NCBI GenBank assembly: GCA_947561715.1 | Contig: OX387204.1 | Location: 14,823,001 to 14,887,000 of the forward strand | DNA length: 64,000 nucleotides | Source: Ascidia mentula | Taxonomy: Eukaryota; Chordata; Ascidiacea; Phlebobranchia; Ascidiidae | Direction of reading: 5' to 3' | Shown: one piece after another, positions 15,101 to 33,700 of the stretch | Numbering within the stretch: the stretch's first letter is position 1 | Layout: each line of letters begins with the position of its first letter | The notes under the pieces: model-generated | What the model was told of the DNA's origin: nothing | Databases searched by the model: none | Seen by the model: the letters and a program-made list of their open reading frames with translations, nothing else | Made by a program: the position numbers and the translations under genes

Positions 15101-18100
15101 CTACATTCTTATGCAAAACACAACACGTGATAAGGTCCAGGGGTATGTTTTATTGCAAAACAAAATACTAATTATATAACTTAAACCAAACGAATGTTAT
15201 CCATCTTGTGGTACAGATGTTTAGTTCCCTTCGCTGTTTTTATCAACCAAAGGAATGAATAATCATTCTTTGCTGCTAGATTGATTCCTATAATTTGGCG
15301 TAATGTTTTAAAGGAAGCATCGTTGTTGTCCAAGATTTGATACCAAACTACTATGAGATATTTTTTTTTTTTTTAATTTTGAAAGTGTTCTAGGCATTTG
15401 TGTAATTACAATTTTGCAACCATACGCATGCTGGTGCGGTTAAAATAGGTCCACAGTACAATTTAATACTAAGTAATGTTCACATATTAACACAACATCT
15501 AGATTCAATTTCCAATTAAATGATTTTCCAGGACTCCATACAAGAGACGAACGACAATTATCGTCGCATTTATGGTGAAATTCTCCTCCCGCTCCGCTCC
15601 CTGGAGAGCGAGGAATGGCGAACCAAGGATCTGAAAATCCGCATCCGGATGGCGGAGGATCAGGCGGGAGTCCTCGGACGCAGGGTGATGCAGCTCGAGA
15701 TTGACAACGGGACCTTGATGAAGCAAGTGGAGGACTGGGTAAGTTGGAAGTGTTTGTTATGGTTTGATTCGTGTTTGTAGAATATTTTGTGAAGACTATA
15801 GCTTAGATCTCCAACCTCCTGTAGTTTGCAAAAGGGGCAATCATACTCTTACACAATATATCCCCAATGGTTCTGGAACCTCTTAAGTTTCAATATCCCG
15901 TGTTTTTAACATCATTAAATCTATATGGTATGGTTAACATTACACGATATGGGATTTTTCACTTTGAAACTTTGTTATTGAAACGCGTATGAATCATATA
16001 CACCGCGGGGTGAACGCAGTAATGTTACATGCAATGCCAAGATTGGCAGGATCGCCCCACTGCGCAGGTCCTTACTTGGCGATAACAGCTATCGTATCGA
16101 GATCCAGCTAGTCTGCAATGCCTGGGGTGCGAAGCTTGTGAACCTTTTGTCCCCGGGGTGAAATTAGAAAAAAAAAATTTGCGATTATATTGACCTACAT
16201 GAACACGGTATGAAATTTGTGTTATCAGGAATCAACGAATGCCGAACAATCCCGAAAAGCGACGACGAGCGACGTCCAGTTCCTCGAGGACGAAGTGGAA
16301 GCACTTCGACTCGCACTGCAGGAAGTCGAACAGGAAAACCTCGTTCTGAGAGGTTAGCTCTTATTTCACTTAATATTTTCAATATATTTCAGTTTAATTA
16401 TCACGACTTTATCGTTGTTCTTTGGTGTAGATCAAATAAGTCAAATGAACCGCATGGCAAAGGAAAGAGAGAAGATGCTTTTGTTGGATGTAAGTATTCA
16501 AGTACATTTTCTGTGGTGACAACAGTGAAGCTGATTCGTGACTGTTTTTAAGAACGGTGACTGAAAAAAATATAATGTTGGGTTGCAACATGTTACGTTG
16601 GCATCTTGCTTTCGTATATTCAAACCTACCGCATTTGGTATAAAATTGACGACTGTCACGTAGTGGCTAATATTTGCTTGATCACAACCAAGCTTAACTA
16701 ATTAATATAGAGCTTTAACTAACGCTGATAATATAAAAAACGCTGAGCTAAGATATAGAAAACTCAAAACTTATTTCGTTATCTGCAGTAGGTTGTCTTT
16801 TGACCATGGTGGGAATCTAAAAAAACATTAGTTTTTATCTTTGCCTCCACCTAGCGGCGCTTGTGATTGTAAAAAAAAAACGCGCGCTCGATCGTAACAT
16901 CAGTTTCAAAACATAACAACATTTCGTAGACACCCAAAATCGAGGAAAAAGTCATACCATTGTCCCCGCTGCTGGAGAAAGCCATGATGACACCGACCGA
17001 TGCAGAACAACCGTGGAGTTTACCCGATCACAAATCGATCAACGTGAACAGGTCTGACAGTGAAATGACCTTGTCGGCGATGAATGTTAGCGACTTGGAC
17101 AAGTTCTCTATGCGCGTCATGACCCACGTGAGAACGGCCATTGACGCCGAGACGCAGACGATTGAAAACATGCAGGTAATGCGCAGATCTGTGTCTTGTG
17201 TCTGTCGGTGTTGTTGCACATATGTTTTACACTGTAACTGTCTGGGCGGATGTAGTTAACGTTAACAGACAACTATTACTTGAAACAAATCCCCTAAAAG
17301 AGAAAAAAACAGACGGTTTACTTCAGAAATCTCGTTTTTCAGAATTCAAATTTTGCCTCTTTAACCCTTAATTTAAATGCCATGTCGTGGTACGACGGCG
17401 CTTGAAATCAAATAAAAAACCTTCGGGGCTGTTTTTGAACCAGGACATAGCAACGCGACACTTGCACGCCTTTTTTGCGCCGAATTACGCGTCCGAAGAC
17501 GACCTAAAGTTGACTGGGCCGTACTAAAGCAGGTTTCCGAAGTGATCCAACGAATCCTCGGCGGCCACGACATCCGTAAACCGCAGGGAATATCCCGGGA
17601 GCTGATCAACGTCCTGGCGCGCTCCAAGGAAGCCGACGTTGAACACGTGGTAGAGCAGCTTCACAACTTGGCCATCGCAACCCGCAGCTTATTGGGCGAC
17701 AGCGAGGTAACGGATATATGTAGAGTGGTGTCGGAGGATAAGGCTACGCAGAAATCCGAGGGGGTTTTGGTCCATTACCGCGCGGCGGCGATAGAAGAGA
17801 AGGAACGGCCGGTGCCGAAGGTCGAGGTGATTACTGTGGAGAAGGAACCGACTGTGCGATATTTAAGTGTAAGTTTTTTGGTGAATTGGGTTTGGGAGGT
17901 TTGCTTATTTAAGGTTTGTGATCGGTTAAAGGGTGTAGGCTCGTGTTTTCGTCGATTATTTGCAAATACTGAAAAAAAATTAACATAATATTGCGATAAT
18001 TGAAGGACCCACACCGCTTTTAGAAAGCAATAGTGGAATACAACGTATTGTGATAAGGCAAGGAATAATATTATCATTTGCTTACACCTGTGGTAAACTG

Positions 18101-18882: not shown

Positions 18883-21247
18883 CTACTGCTTGCGTGAATT
18901 GTACAACACCACCTGTTTTCCAAACTTGGTGACACATTGTTCCACCAATTGCAAAAGCCTTGCCACGTTGCGCTCAAGCAGTTGACCAATAAGTGGCGAC
19001 TCGTTGGTCCACAGCGAAGTGCGGAACTGGTCTTTCAGGTCGCAGCGGTTTGTTATTGCGTAACGAAGTGTGTCAATCACGTGGACGGGGAACTGACAGT
19101 TGTAGAGGTAGGAAAGGTAGTCGTTGTTGTCGTGTTGAAAAGCGTCGTCGGTTTTTACGTGAATGAGGTGACCTGAAAATAGCGAGGATTGGTTTAAAGA
19201 TGCAAATTAACATCAGGCTTTTAACGGAACGCAAAACGGGGATCAAAATGTTGTTTTCAGTGCATTTAATGAATTAACAACGCGTTTTTATTGTGGGAAT
19301 CAAGAGGTGATCTTTATTCAAATAGGACGCACACAAAGACACTATAAATGAAAAGGCTGCGCCCAACGCGATTTTAACAATCAACCAATCGAACTGTCGC
19401 ATTTATTATCACGTGACAATATCAACCAATCAAAATCATCGCACCTTTTAATACGTGACAATATCAACCAATCATACACGAGGTAACAAAAAAATTTTCA
19501 ACACGCACCTTGGACGCTCTGGTGGCCTTTGCTCGGCACCGGAATAGCTGCCAAGTAGCCGAGAAGCAAATACTCCATATCGTCCCACTGTTTTCGGCTG
19601 AACGGTGTCACAGCATTGGTGATTCCGCTCAGTTTCGGTACTGATATGTAGTGAACTGTCGTGACCCGCTCGGGTATCTGAAATCATTGTTTTGGGTGTT
19701 TTTTTTTGTCGTTTCTTTTTATGTTTTATCAAAGAAAAATGAGCCCGCTGTCGTTACGTTTTCTTTTTATTTCCCATCCTTTTCGCCCATTTCATATTTT
19801 TCTTTTATATTTCATCCTTTCCGCTCGATTCGTGTTGTTTTTTTTTTAGTTCACACGCGTGCATTTCTGTATGTGGGAACACTGGTGTCAAAATGAACCC
19901 TGTTGAATTTCATCACATTTCTTTCTATGTGCGAATGACCGCTGTGCTGTGTGCCCTCACATTCCTTCATAGGCAATTTCCCAAATCGAGAAAGTAACAC
20001 AAACTAATAATAAATAATGAAGTTCTTCAATAATTACACAACTTGGCCCAAACATGATAATTGAAATTAAATATAGAACTGTAATTTTAGTTGTACGAAT
20101 CGTAATCCCTAAATAATAAACCAATCTTACTACATGACTCTAAATTTTGACTGCGAGTTTTTGTTCTAATTGGGTTTCAATGTATTTTATGTGGAAAACA
20201 TCAAAACCTAAGTGAGGTCCCCGCGTGTTTTTAATCGCTTCCAAAAGAGATAGTTAAGTTAAGAGATTATTGTCGCTGTAGTGTTGTGTAGATATAACAC
20301 ACACTCACTTAATCAGTCTACGTTTTCATTCAAGCAAAATCTTGATATGCCGTAATATAACAGAGGGTTAAACTTATTATGCAAGAAAACATTCGCAAAA
20401 ATCATAGAGCGTTATGATGAGACCTGTTTCTAGAAGGGGCATGGATGCTAATTTACCAGAGTTGCATTTTAAGTGGTTACTTCTATACACAGATAGGTGA
20501 TTTTTAAGGGGTACCGGCAAGAAAAAAGATCAACAATCACTGGCTTTTATGATTGGATGAACGACACCTACCGTGGGGACTACGACGCCACGTAGTGAGC
20601 CGTCTTGTTGCTTCAGTTGCCGAAATTTGTCAAACTGGTTTCCACCAATGTCAACTGGAAAACCGGCTTCGGATAATTCCGATGGACTCAGCAGTCTCTC
20701 TATGGCTGGCACAGTCTTGTACAACTGTATGTGGAAAAGGTTGGTTTCAGAAAGCAGTTCACGAATCAGAAAAAGATGCAGAAAATTAAAGCAACTCACA
20801 ATATTGACAGATAGGGAAATAAGCTGATAGAAAAATTGCAACATGTTTTTTTTAAATATTTACATAAACAAAACTATAAAAACCAAAAGGTTGCTTCGTT
20901 TTTCTTTTTAAATACTTACACACACAAACTTATAAAGAACAAGTAAATTAACCAGTAGGTTCGTTTTTACATGCTTGTAAAGTATGCGTTTCAAACATGA
21001 CATTTTAGGCGATGCAAAATACGTACCCCGAGCATTCTGTCTAGTTGGTAAACGGCTAACTGGGATAACTCAAACTCCTCGGGCCCACGCTTGGCAAGAA
21101 ACAGCGCCGGCCGATCCGCATTGTTCAATGTGAGACGGATGTTCATCTGACCACCGATGGCTAGTTTTCCTCTTGCCGGCTTGAAAGCTTTGGCATCTTC
21201 CACCTTGCTATCGGCAATGATGCTTTCCCAGTCTTGGTCTTTCGTTC
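18883..21247 (-). other. Gene B, C-terminal FAM20/GASK-like domain
   Basis: Exons 10-13. RPALFLAKRGPEEFELSQ and LAVYQLDRMLG match the FAM20 pattern G-x-A-L-F-K ... A-E-I-A-A-F-x-L-D-R-x-L-x. The Glu before I-A-A-F is Gln here (Q621). Where FAM20 enzymes have L-x-G-N-x-D-R-H this protein reads LLLGYLAAIPVPSKGH. Where they have I-I-H-L-D-N-G it reads LIHVKTDDAF. The C-terminal helix LLQLVEQCVTKFG matches the family's ending. Confidence 0.65.
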
Positions 21248-24200
21248 CTAGACATAAGTGTTAGGTTTACAGGCTTCGCAGTCCAGGCATTGCGGTCTAG
21301 CTGGACCAGCTTTTAGACATAAATGGGGTGGATTAGTAAATTTTGGTGGAACCTCTGGTGGTTGGCTGTTAAGTCCACATCAACTGATCGATAACCGTTA
21401 TAGAAAACCGTGTTAATTTATTTTAAGTTTTTTATTTTTAAGGGCAAAAATGGTCTAAATGTTTTTAATTTGTGTCGATTCACTGGAAAAGGGTGAAGTT
21501 ATTTTCAACAAGTTTGCCTCGAAAAAGTTAACAGGGTTTGACACTAAAACAAGTATGTAGCCTACTGAGAGACATTTGCGCAACATTAGATCGATATTTT
21601 ATTAAACAAATGACTGCACGGCAGTTAGAGCTTACTACCGACCTTTCCATCCGCACGATTTCATCAGAATAGCTTCCCCCGTTTCTCTGACGTAATATTG
21701 AGTCGTCTCCATGTCACCAAGGCAGTCATCTTTCTTTTCGTGTGTTTGCTGCCATTAAAAGTTTTATTTGACTGCTCGTGTGGCAATAATATTGGGCAAA
21801 TCATAGCAACATTTGACCCACCAAAACACTTTGAGGGTGGAAAATATGCAACCATGTTTTATGCAATACGAAAAAAACAGTGACCTTTTCGCATATTGAC
21901 GACAATGCGCAACTTAGGTTCAACCAATAGCATAATTCATCTTGAAAAATCTGTTGTTATCCTTAAATTTTCATTAATGCTTTTTAAACGTGAGAAATGT
22001 GTTACACCAGGTAAGTATTGGGCACTGACCTTCACCTCGGGTTCCTTAATTTCTGGTTCTGGCATCGCGTTGTCGGCTGGTCGAACGTACACTGTGGTAC
22101 CAGCGTGATCCACAGGTTTTGAGTTGTCCGACTTTAATATGGCAATAATCCAGCCTGAAAGCATTACACATGAACTAAATTTACAACATGGCCTGCAATG
22201 GCAGCATTCAAGCAGACCAATATCCATTTAAATGCTGTTGTTTGAACACAAGTTTCTGATCATTGAGCCTCATTTGCTCCTTTAAGAGTTACCTTCTTTG
22301 CGAAGGTGGGGTATGGTGACGAACGCCTTGCACTTTACGTCCTTCAGGCACATGTTGACCGCGTCCTCGGCCGTCTGCAGTGACATCACACATCCCCATT
22401 CTGCTTTGCTGTAGGGGCAGTAGTAGTCATAGCGACCAGGGAAATCTGCATTTTCTATCTTCTGAAATCCGTCAATTGTCTGCGATTGTAAATATCAGTT
22501 AAGTATGGTTAAAAGGTAAGGAACATGTACACCATACTCGATACAACAAACAAGCCGGGTGTTAGTTTTTAGCAGTTCGGGGTTTATATTTGTACACAAA
22601 GTGTCAATCTGTACCAAAACCAAATATTTAAGCTATCAGAATCTCCCTATCTTTTCAGCCGACAAAGCATCAGATATTTGTCGACTGATTTTAAGTAAAA
22701 GCAATGAATCGATTATTTACAAAGTGATTGCTAGGAGATAAGGCTAGGTGCAAAATGACTTCAGTCACAACATGGAAAAATAAATTAAAACGATAAAGGT
22801 TAATTTCACCACTGGTTCCTTTGGTTTTTCTTGTTTGATTTGTGGGAGGGGATCGGAATTTCGAACCAAAATCTTTTCCGGGTTTACTTCATTGATTGAA
22901 ACACGCCATTCATGTTGTTCCCAAGAATCAACCTTAATGAAACAAATTTTTGGGTTTTTTTTGAACTTTTTTTTATGTTACTGGCCAAAATTAAATTTAG
23001 CAAGGTAGTTTCCCTTTAATAATTCCTTCTATTATATTTATCCAACGACTCAACCTTGTGCTACTGTTAAAACATTTCCACCCACATAAAAATTTACACA
23101 TAACAACATGCTAGTATTGCCAAACTAAACAGTTGGCACACTTGTTACCTGTGAACCATCCGGTAACCTTTTGATGCTTAACCCTGCTGGATTGCTGTCA
23201 CCATTATCTTGTATTGCCCGATCAGCATTCAAAGGCCTGCCCTCCAAATCAGCTAAAATGTACATTTTGTGTTTAGTAGAAAACTTCCATTTTTTTGTAC
23301 ACGTACAAATTGGACAAGTCCCCTACAACTCCAGTCATATAACAAACAGTGATCAGTATTCAGTATATACATTTTTTTTTTTATACTTATTGCAATACTT
23401 CTGCGGGTGACTATAGATTGCTTACTTTTTGGCAAGTATTTCTCCAGTTGGCGAAGCAAGTCAGCTGCTTTGTATTGGTATTTTTTCAGGCTGTTTAGAA
23501 GCTCAGACATGTCTTTGGTGAACTTGGAAGGGACACCAAATTGAAGTAGAGGAAGCAGATAGGTTTTGGTTAAACCCACAAGGTTTTTCTTTTCATTGTA
23601 ACCTTTGCATTCTTGGGCAACACAATCCACTCCTGATCAACATGCAAAAAATACTTCCTGTTCAGTTTCACATTACATAAACATGTAAGTTAATCCACAA
23701 GCAATTTTTTATATAAATAGCACAATAAACACATGTTTAGTACACATCTGGTAACTTTAACAATTAAAGAATCAGTGAGTTGCAGACAAGACACACTGTT
23801 TTGACTTGCAGTCCAAAGCCACAGTCACCAGCTGTACTGATAAGACCTTCAAAGTGGCGTGCATTGTGTGCAACTCATAAAGAAATACGTTGTTTCCAAT
23901 TATCACCAACTACATTACATATAGTGGCATACCTAAGTTCATTCCATCAACAAAACAATTTTTAGGCAATATACAAGACGGTTCTGACACCAGAGGGAGC
24001 TGTGGAAAGCTGTTTAACTTGATGTCCTGATTTTTGGATGAAATAATGAAGTTTTCGGACTCCCAACCTCGCAGCAGAACGCTTCCATATGGTAAAGATG
24101 CCATAAACTTGACCAGGGAGATTAGGTTATAACATACCTAGATAAGGAACAATCTTGAGATTTGTGTGGCACAGAGGGATTTATGTTGAAAACTGTGGCA

Positions 24201-25676
24201 AACCTTCACTCTTTCTTCCCATGAGAGTGTTTTTAAATGTTCCATGTTAGCAGGTAAACCTCCTTCTTTTATCAGCACAACTCCAGATGAAGACGATATC
24301 TTGCTGTCTGCAAGTTAAGGAATTTATTATGAGGAGAGTACATAACTAGACAAGAAAACTTTATTGTCATTGAAGCTAACATTTTTTAAAGAATTTAAAC
24401 CAAGAACAGATGATTTTTTCAACAATGTGTACGTCCATGGCACAAGTTGTATTATATATAACTTTTTTGGGGGAATCAAAATCGTTTGGACTTGTATAAA
24501 TAATAGTTTAATATGTGTATACTCATTTTCAAGCATTTTTAAAACTAAAGCATGAGGTTACCCAGCCTGTCTGCCGAATTGATCCGCTGAACACAAAATC
24601 CCAGAACCCGAGCCACGCTTGGATGATTCAAGTAGTTCAGTATTACTGCCTCCTGCAACACCCTCCTGCAAAAAGAAAAGGAACTGTTTGAAAATACATC
24701 TAAAAATAAAATGAAGTGGACAGTCTACTTATCTATCAAAAAAGGCTGCATTCCGGATATACTTGCCTATACTTAATCAAAAAACATCGGTCCAGATTCT
24801 GCTGTGAATGATCGGAGTCAGAAGAACCACACTTAGCTGATATCAATTCATCAACATCTGCTTTTGCAACTTCAATTGCTATTTTATATCCATCATATAG
24901 GGCTTGATATGTTGCCTGATGCTTGGTCTCGTGTAGGAGATCCCGCACCTGTTTGACATATTTGCATGATAAGTTGGCCCAGTAACATATTTAATTATCT
25001 CTTTAACCACAGTGTAACACACATAATTGTGGCATCAACCTTGTTACATATTTAAGTCTGATTCATAGTACTGGCATACCCTTTAAATACAGTTGTGCTA
25101 CATCAGTCAAAATCCTGTTAAGAAGTGCTTGCTATCAGCACTCTGTTGCATTTATCTTATGTACATTTCACTAACAAGTCACATTGTTTTCTTCCAATTT
25201 ACCTGTGAACTCTTAACTTCTTTGCAGCCCCACTGGTAAAAAAAGAAGTTATTCACATTGACGGTGGCGATAAGATCATCAAGTAAGTAACTGTAGTTGG
25301 CAGAGAACTGTCCGTCTGAAGTAATCCCATAAATGGTGGCATTAACTTGCGTCTTTGGCATGGATGTAAATTTTGTAAATGATACCAAATGGGCAAGGTT
25401 TCGAGTAAGAAACTCATGATGGGAGAATGGGTCATTCTCACTGTCTATTCTGCCGACTTCAAATATTTTATTTTCAAAAAAATCTTGTTGGTCCCGTGGT
25501 ATCAATGATCTCCTAGTTATCAACCTCTCACGTAAAAATAAATACCCAATGACAACAACAAGAGTTAGACCGAAGCATACTAGGAAATGTTTTCTTCTTT
25601 CTTTTACATTCCAAATATTCTTCTGGTACAACTCGAAACAATGGAATAACATAATTAATTGGTTTCTCTGAAACAT
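18883..25676 (-). CDS. Gene B: type II membrane protein with two tandem secretory kinase-like domains
   Basis: Thirteen exons, read downward: 25676-25203, 24948-24763, 24652-24562, 24307-24204, 24107-23933, 23632-23426, 23252-23149, 22479-22293, 22154-22008, 21247-21027, 20724-20572, 19677-19509, 19172-18883. Every junction keeps phase, giving about 835 aa. Residues 31-48 are a membrane segment after KERRK, so Golgi/ER type II; NAT and NYS sequons follow. Residues 150-412 follow PKDCC/FAM69-type kinases: GYKIAIEVAK, EAVILNYLNHPSVARVLGFC, LSWEERVK, LPYGSVLLRGW, CKGYNEKKNL. Residues 448-558 hold a Cys module (C468, C477, C491, C497). Residues 590-835 follow FAM20/GASK/Four-jointed kinases: RPALFLAKRG, SQLAVYQLDRMLG, HLIHV, LLQLVEQCVTKFG. 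Catalytic motifs look lost in both halves, so a pseudokinase or allosteric partner is likely. Weak points are donors GTTTGC (exon 4) and GTGTAA (exon 9). Confidence 0.8.
19380..19475 (+). repeat. Short tandem repeat with CCAAT boxes
   Basis: TCAACCAATC occurs three times at a spacing of about 41-42 bases (from 19381, 19422 and 19464). Between the copies lie CACGTGACAATA and TACGTGACAATA. It lies in gene B intron 12. Confidence 0.7.
22293..22479 (-). other. Gene B exon 8: cysteine module
   Basis: Encodes YYCPYSKAEWGC, then AVNMCLKDVKCKAFVTIP. The next exon gives WIIAILKSD and TTVYVRP. Four cysteines, an AEDAVNMC helix and a CKAFV strand suggest a small disulfide domain of PAN/WSC style linking the two kinase-like halves. 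I cannot name the family. Confidence 0.45.
23426..24948 (-). other. Gene B, N-terminal PKDCC/FAM69-like kinase domain
   Basis: Exons 2-6. The N-lobe has a strand with a glycine (ALYDG) before IAIEV, where VAIK-type kinases carry the ATP lysine; here the position is Glu184. The alpha-C region gives QEAVILNYLNHPSVARVLGF. The segment where this family has G-S-x-x-x-x-D-F-x-x-x-Q/N-F reads GSVLLRGWESENF with no aspartate. The metal-binding Asp after IKL is also missing (IKLNSFPQ). The closing CKGYNEKKNL block is typical of the family. Confidence 0.65.
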
Positions 25677-30700: not shown

Positions 30701-33700
30701 AAAGTATGTTTTATTTTTTATTTATTGTATGCATAAGCCTGAATATGCGGTAAAACTCCCAAAATGCTGTTCAGAAAACATACGCTGTTAGTGTTGGTTT
30801 TGCATGGTGTCGCAGGGCAATCTATACAATGTAGGAATTGATCAATGAAAATGTTCGTTTGGTTACAGATTCCAACATTGACCGGGCATCCTGTCAAGAA
30901 ACTTCCGCTCCCAAAATACAGGCAAGTGCATTAGAACATACAGAACGAGCTTCACACCATAAAATCCCCAACGTCGATAAGGGTTTGCCCAACATAACCA
31001 CAACCGACCCCGTTAACAAACACGATGAAAAACAATCAGAGGAGACAGAAATATGTACAGAATATGCCACCCTGGAGGGTGTAGACTTAAACCAGGGCGG
31101 TTTTGTTTCAAAGTCGAGTATCTCAAAACCGCCCTTATCTGCTTTCGACGGCGATGATGCCAGGCGCGACTTCCTAGAAGCTTGTAGAAACAACATACGG
31201 CAATCTGCTGACACAGATTCCACCGCGAGTGCGTCAAACCGGTCTTATACCAACACTGTGCACGTCAGCGAGTCCGTCGGGCCACCTTACAAAAACGAAA
31301 CTGCGCCCTTGCATTCTGACATCCCCACCAGCGCCCCGCCGTCGGTCGCACGTGGAAAGGACATTGCCGAAATGCCGCCGAAATTCTCCGGTGAACCTTT
31401 GAGCGAAGGGCAAGCCAAGGTCGTGGATATTTGCGGGGTTTCTAATGGCCGGCGTTGTGACAGTAAGTGCATCAGTACAGGGCGCACTGGCGACGATAAT
31501 ACAGCGCCGTTGTGTGATCCGGTTCTGTATGAGCCAAAAGAAAATGTGAAGCATTTCGGTTGCGGAAAAAACGGCCACCCTCGCTCAGATGTCATTTTCT
31601 CCTCCGAACAAATTCCAAAATCAGCATCTTCATCTCGTGGATGTTACGAGAAGGAACCCTCGGAAAGCCATGAGATTGGACCCTTCCCGGTGGCGAACAA
31701 CACGGAACCGGTCGACTTACATAACATAAAGTCTCACCGCTGCCTAAAAACCTCGGCGGTAAGTGGAGAACTCCAGGATGATAATTCAGCGAAAGGAGAT
31801 TTCCATCGGAGCTCAGTCGACTCCGCGAACTTGAGCGGGAACAGATGCTCGGAGGCACAAAAAGAAAATGGCGTCTCTGACGCAGGAGGCCAGGTCCGTT
31901 TTTCCGAATCATCCGAGCCTTTATTTAAATCTATGCCTGATACCCGCAGCAACTTGCCCGATACGAATATCAGAGAGGTGGTCAATGAAACACATAAAGT
32001 TAACCGCAATGTGAATGGCAAAGAGATCCCTCAAGACTCATCGGCGAACAAATACGAACATGTGAATGGTGTGACACCGAGTGGCCAACTCAAAGAGCTT
32101 GCCATGGAAACTCCTAAAATGAATGAAAATAGTAAAAAGCCACCATTGTTGGGGGAATCGTCCTCCAATAACGGTAATTGTCTTCATTTAAATGGTGTGC
32201 CACCTAGCGGGCAACCGGGATCCGTGCATCTCCCGAAACTCGCTTCTCATACAAAAGTCAGTGGAATGCAGATTAGTTGTGCAGATGGGACTTCTACAAC
32301 TTTGACCCAAGAAAACAACTACAATCAACTGGCAAACGAAATAGGCGAAGCATCGACGAGTGTGTTGCAAAACGATAAAGAGTTCTCAGCTACAAACCAA
32401 CTATCCGACGTTCTCGATAACACAGGCCACCATTCGAATGAAATAACGACAGATGCTGTTTTAAAGAATTCTTTGTCAAATGAACCACAGACTGTAGGTA
32501 TGCCCCCAATTTCGGGCGGAAATATGCTTGCAGGGGACAATGCTGAAAAGGAAAAATATGTTACCCGTGTTATTGACACTATCTCGCAAAACTGTGCGGA
32601 CCCTAATTCCAACAACGGTCGAAACTTGTCGGACGGCGTAGACGGAGAAAACCTTCGCGGCGAAAGGACAAAAGAAAACATCAGCCCGGTCGAAGGATCA
32701 ACGCGATTGGATACGGCACTGGTCGGAGCCGGAAACTCACATGCGAAAGTGGTTGAGGAGAAAACGCCAACAGTCGACAATGCAGATAAGGTCGACCACA
32801 GTTTTGAGAAGGTGAACGGATCACTGGGACGATTGCATCTATTCCCACCACATATTTCACTTATGCAGTCACGTGTGCTTTGCTTGACCAATCACATCGC
32901 TCCACTGTTTGCCGTTGTTGCTACGATCACTCCTGGAGTGTTAACCTGCATGGCTTAACTAATCAATGCATGTATTCTTCCCGACAAAGTGTGGAAACGT
33001 AGGATAAAAAAATTGGGTCAGAAAAAAATAATCGTTTTCCTCAAAAATCCACGCGAAAAATTTTTACCAATTTTGTGTGCACAGCAATTTTATGCTGCTT
33101 TAAAAGCAGGGAAACGAATTAAGACTCTTTGCGGCAAAGTGTTGCGAATAAGGCGGTAAAACTAATTAATATTTTTTACGAAATACCTTTGTCTAAAACG
33201 CAACAAAATACTGCGACAAATTTGCCGAAAATGGTGCAATCTGGGCACATTTTAAAATATTTGATTTTCTTTAGTTGAGTGTACGAATGCACTGCCGTTG
33301 TTTTGCAATGTCTGAATATTTCTTCGCTGCACTCACCGTGACCTTCCCAATATAGTAGGGCTTTAAAGGGTTAAAAAAAGTTGAAGACGCAAAAAACGAT
33401 GTTTCTTTTGAATGATAATGGCGGGTTTGGCAAAAGCCTGCAACATCGTAACACCGGAATTAAATCGGGCAAAAGCGAATTTGTTGCAGCGCAATGGCCA
33501 AAACGTGTATTCCGTTGCGATAAGCTTCCCTTTAGCCTATACAGTTGTAGTTGTACAACCGCGCACTCTAACGACCTTTGAAAGGGCTTTTGCGCAGCAA
33601 ATCGCGAAGTGGAGAGAGCCGTACGTGTCCCTAGTTTTCCGCGAAAAACCAGTTAGGCTGCTTGCATTGGTCGATACGTCTAATATCGGATTCTAAATCC

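Follow-up and report, generated by a model that had tools for sequence, protein, structure and literature searches.

An ascidian gene that appears to join two pseudokinases of different secretory-pathway families to a PAN/apple-type domain

Does a single gene of the ascidian Ascidia mentula encode two secretory-pathway kinase folds of different families in one membrane protein and, if so, is that protein a kinase at all? The question is raised by a locus in a 64,000-nucleotide stretch of the genome (contig OX387204.1, positions 14,823,001 to 14,887,000; hereafter the window), where a preliminary description, made from the DNA letters, had placed a 13-exon gene for a tandem kinase. The coding gene lies on the minus strand (25676..18883), with the location and ends given there, and encodes 917 residues with splice phases that fit at every junction. 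We found 15 exons rather than 13, all matched in order by the orthologue of Phallusia mammillata; exon 11 (21748-21643) is short and easily overlooked in such a count. The chain does hold two kinase folds of different families, as judged from Pfam scores for domain 1 and two low-confidence fold models for domain 2, and profile searches over its whole length did not return one family alone. The term 'tandem kinase' is misleading, however: residues on which catalysis depends seem to be missing from both domains, so that both look like pseudokinases, a point absent from the preliminary description.

The fusion is not peculiar to Ascidia. Among some 5.8 billion proteins searched, with 6813 candidates, nine relatives reached E <= 0.001, and they span 86-99% of the query. 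The closest among those retrieved was the Phallusia mammillata orthologue (P0001; 69% identity, 99% coverage), and the other species-named relatives came from Clavelina lepadiformis (P0002; 52% identity, 804 residues, the anchor region being absent from the model), Ciona intestinalis (47% identity, 'uncharacterized protein LOC100184284') and Styela clava (43% identity). Proteins carrying both halves are thereby found in three ascidian orders: Phlebobranchia (Phallusia), Aplousobranchia (Clavelina) and Stolidobranchia (Styela). The four of nine relatives that carry a species name are all tunicates. An alignment-based search recovered only two of the nine known relatives and is thus no evidence of absence. 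The Phallusia protein gave 17 matches in the 195.8 Mb A. mentula genome, 15 of them in order over the window gene (14 exons at E 6.8e-50 to 2.7e-6; the short exon 7 at only E 1.1). No second copy of the gene was found in this genome, the two other matches reaching only E 1.85 and 2.64. Given these collinear matches, the weakness of the two others and the relatives with both halves, the fusion appears to be single-copy in its own genome and conserved among ascidians. The relative search, alignment, residue table, conservation figures and Pfam scan of the window used a 914-residue version of the protein, lacking three residues at the exon 2/3 junction.

Domain 1 was recognised by Pfam PF12260, which we take to cover PKDCC besides FAM69. 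The isolated domain scores 26.4 against a gathering cut-off of 25.2, and the whole chain falls just under it (24.9); seven of the nine relatives pass, with P0001 (17.6) and P0005 (20.9) below. These scores, together with the Cys-rich kinase fold, show the predicted domain to be of the same type as FAM69/DIPK and PKDCC (VLK). The alignment likewise shows that key residues have been lost. The catalytic, ATP-binding Lys is absent in all ten sequences (0/10); the HRD-type Asp is retained in 1/10 and the DFG Asp in 2/10, no sequence retaining two of the three. In contrast to the FAM69/DIPK proteins and PKDCC, domain 1 is thus without the catalytic Lys and mostly without the catalytic and DFG Asp, and has two further domains fused to it. 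Its other motifs differ between species, which fits a lack of catalytic constraint, and it looks like a degenerate FAM69/PKDCC relative, a pseudokinase rather than an active member. The GYNEKKNL motif may be PKDCC-like. Searching the A. mentula genome with PF12260 gave no match at E <= 0.001, in a search that is blind to intron-split copies; because the window gene itself was missed, the result is silent on ordinary FAM69/PKDCC genes. Three weak matches were seen (L022, L023 and L024; E 0.002-0.18), of which L022 and L023 were rejected as FAM69/PKDCC genes, being ordinary cytosolic kinases by eye.

For domain 2, it is the fold that suggests a family: in two low-confidence predicted models, the best matches are Fam20 crystal structures. 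PF06702 (the Fam20C model) gave no hit at E values up to 1 in the window protein or its nine relatives (none up to E 0.1 for P0001), and Foldseek with the model of the C-terminal half gave no match at E <= 0.001. In a comparison of the C-half profile with ascidian Fam20B by hhalign, the last helix alone aligned. The likeness to Fam20A, Fam20B and Fam20C therefore lies in the fold and in this last helix, whereas a significant sequence match and a recognisable NADRHH-type catalytic loop are both missing, and the canonical helix-C Glu is Gln in all ten sequences. Of the FAM20/GASK-like label previously given to this domain, the Fam20 part agrees with the models, while GASK1/FAM198 amounts to a sub-threshold Pfam echo. 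PF15051 matched five of the nine relatives scanned at E 0.035-0.11 (11.8-13.4 bits vs. a cut-off of 25) and the window's own domain 2 not at all at E <= 1; the likeness to GASK1A/B is a short match near the helix-C segment. The catalytic Asp (D458 of Fam20C) is absent when mapped by the predicted helix and a 20-residue spacing, MAFFT giving another Asp, and the position of the metal Asp (D478 of Fam20C) is ambiguous by two residues, an acidic residue (D or E) lying two positions from the metal site. The strand-3 Lys and the Glu at the E306 position are retained in 10/10; Fam20A, according to the sections of PMC4421793 consulted, has Gln at this neighbouring position, vs. Glu in the ascidian domain. 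The helix-C Gln and the apparent lack of a catalytic-loop Asp suggest a loss of activity in domain 2.

Between the linker and domain 2 lies what had been called a small Cys module. The module is present, but is more exactly described as probably a PAN/apple domain (exons 9-10) followed by a separate two-Cys stretch (exon 11), the latter backed by the orthologues. Comparison of predicted models suggests a PAN fold, the matches including the HGF N domain in complex with heparin; Pfam PAN_2 remained under its cut-off (E 0.063, 13.8 bits vs. 21.1). Unlike the chains that bear the PAN/apple domains of plasminogen, HGF and factor XI, the host chain here is neither a protease nor a growth factor. Matches of the segment to the splicing factor SRSF1 (E ~0.01) are put down to chance, given the PAN-like predicted fold and the luminal type of the protein, and a Pfam Dabb match to the isolated domain (E 0.011) was rejected as under the cut-off. 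Conservation peaks in the PAN domain (75%); domain 2 follows with 58% and 75 invariant columns out of 277, and the linker of exons 7-8 is poorly conserved (mean identity 33%). The membrane anchor of the preliminary description corresponds to a predicted hydrophobic segment at residues 30-48. With three N-glycosylation sequons and many Cys residues, the chain probably belongs to the type II membrane proteins of the Golgi or secretory pathway, where we infer it to reside.

What might such a protein do? The reading that we favour, and hold to be reasonably probable, is that of a conserved ascidian type II secretory-pathway protein in which two pseudokinases and a PAN/apple domain act as a scaffold or allosteric partner. 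It seems the most likely because both kinase domains are apparently non-catalytic and the half composed of PAN domain and domain 2 is the most conserved. The order would be anchor, FAM69/PKDCC-type pseudokinase, linker, PAN/apple domain, two-Cys exon and Fam20-type pseudokinase. The protein would be no catalyst, with the PAN domain and Fam20-type pseudokinase as its conserved working half: the latter would pair with an active secretory or glycan kinase and tune it allosterically or retain it, while the PAN domain would hold substrate or glycan, at a Golgi or pericellular site. The model for this pairing, by analogy, is vertebrate Fam20A acting on Fam20C; as described in the same sections of PMC4421793, Fam20A lacks a catalytic residue and binds Fam20C, thereby activating it. 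The first candidate partner would be Fam20B, since tunicates seem to have lost Fam20C and kept only Fam20B, as stated with caution in the consulted sections of PMC5865150, and one Fam20B-like locus was found in the A. mentula genome. This locus (L021, G000:C73:8651586-8652514) is the only one detected there by the Fam20C model, with three matches within 1 kb, and the motifs NADRHH and DNAKR occur in its frames, the E306 position being occupied by Asp. The same sections of PMC5865150 describe Fam20B as monomeric, which makes a direct replica of the Fam20A-Fam20C dimer less likely. In a tentative and rather doubtful extension, ascidians, in a subphylum reported to lack both Fam20A and Fam20C, would have built a Fam20-type pseudokinase regulator themselves and linked it in cis with a PAN domain and a pseudokinase of FAM69/PKDCC type; the resulting scaffold would govern phosphorylation, extracellular or of glycans, by their only Fam20B, a kind of control of which we met no description.

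The protein could instead belong purely to adhesion or the matrix, its kinase folds being mere supports and its PAN domain doing the work, for example at the cell surface, where it would bind glycans of the tunic or of heparan type. The leading conservation of the PAN domain and its fold matches to heparin-bound HGF N domains agree with this, but domain 2 is more conserved than a bare spacer would need, and we think the idea unlikely. We give still less credence to activity of one or both domains through a non-canonical active site (as a kinase for glycans or proteins, or as some other transferase), after the manner of POMK, which was formerly labelled a pseudokinase, in the part of the literature consulted. 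The high conservation of domain 2, its invariant strand-3 Lys and E306-position Glu and the acidic residue near the metal site would suit such an enzyme; the helix-C Gln and unrecognisable catalytic loop of that domain, and the missing Lys and species-variable motifs of domain 1, would not. That two adjacent genes were wrongly joined is highly improbable: although one protein (P0010) carries the second half alone, nine relatives from several sources have both halves, four of them with a longest contig of 3.3-4.8 kb and proteins of 936-976 residues that are probably transcripts because such contigs are too short for so intron-rich a gene, and the splice phases fit throughout with the Phallusia exons collinear. 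P0010 (494 residues, longest contig 1792 bases) has the PAN and second kinase domains only, its residues 1-80 being apparently unrelated; it is either a short form or incompletely assembled, and came from a length-limited search in which full-length relatives could not appear.

The component parts of this proposed scaffold or allosteric partner are of known kinds. The domain order, already presented as new in the preliminary description, and the apparent loss of catalysis in both kinase domains are undescribed as far as we searched: titles and abstracts of the open PMC literature, with subscription papers outside the scope, gave no description of the protein or its domain order. If the reading is true, a conserved ascidian double pseudokinase would mean that non-catalytic control of secretory phosphorylation arose outside vertebrates too, in a system open to dissection in Ciona, where the orthologue is still uncharacterised.

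The gene is real as a model of exons, phases and collinear orthologue match (Table 1). Intron 2 is of the GC-AG type (donor AG/GCAAGT, window 24766-24765), the remaining introns being GT-AG. A nearby GT donor with another acceptor would give an in-frame product short of three residues, which are present in 9/9 relatives; the GC donor was chosen because the orthologue residues (KYRRILQEA) and the phase fix the junction. Judging from the alignment, translation may start at Met 9 (25652) rather than Met 1 (25676); Met 9 aligns with Met 1 of Phallusia.

Table 1. Window coordinates of the gene and its predicted parts
Feature	Position	Strand	Basis
Whole coding region	18883..25676	-	phase-consistent model; 15 collinear Phallusia P0001 matches; relatives with both halves
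Exon 1: short N-terminal tail, transmembrane segment, stalk, start of domain 1	25203..25676	-	Phallusia match 56%
Predicted transmembrane segment, residues 30-48	25533..25589	-	highest 19-residue Kyte-Doolittle mean 2.38
Exon 2: domain 1 N-lobe, GC donor at end	24767..24948	-	orthologue residues KYRRILQEA
Exon 3: domain 1, helix C to strand 4 region, LNHPSVARVLGFC	24562..24665	-	alignment
Exon 4: domain 1	24204..24307	-	Phallusia match, phase
Exon 5: domain 1, degenerate catalytic loop and DFG region (RGWESENF ... KLNSF)	23933..24137	-	
Exon 6: domain 1 C-lobe, conserved Cys and GYNEKKNL	23426..23632	-	Phallusia match, alignment
Domain 1 span, end of exon 1 to exon 6, ~residues 126-425: apparent FAM69/PKDCC-type pseudokinase fold	23426..25301	-	
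Exons 7 (23252-23149) and 8 (22932-22810): linker, conserved DGSQVDSWEQHE patch	22810..23252	-	
Exons 9 (22479-22293) and 10 (22154-22030): probable PAN/apple-type domain	22030..22479	-	
Exon 11: 35 residues, two Cys	21643..21748	-	Phallusia match E 4.9e-9
Exons 12 (21247-21027), 13 (20724-20572), 14 (19677-19509) and 15 (19172-18883): domain 2, putative Fam20-type pseudokinase	18883..21247	-	

No canonical polyadenylation signal was seen within 982 bases 3' of the stop codon. Elsewhere in the window, a 707-codon open frame on the plus strand (30835-32958) has no Pfam match at E <= 0.01. A 190-codon open frame without a Pfam match lies about 0.9 kb downstream of the gene on the opposite, plus strand (17416-17988), and may mark where a convergent neighbouring gene ends.
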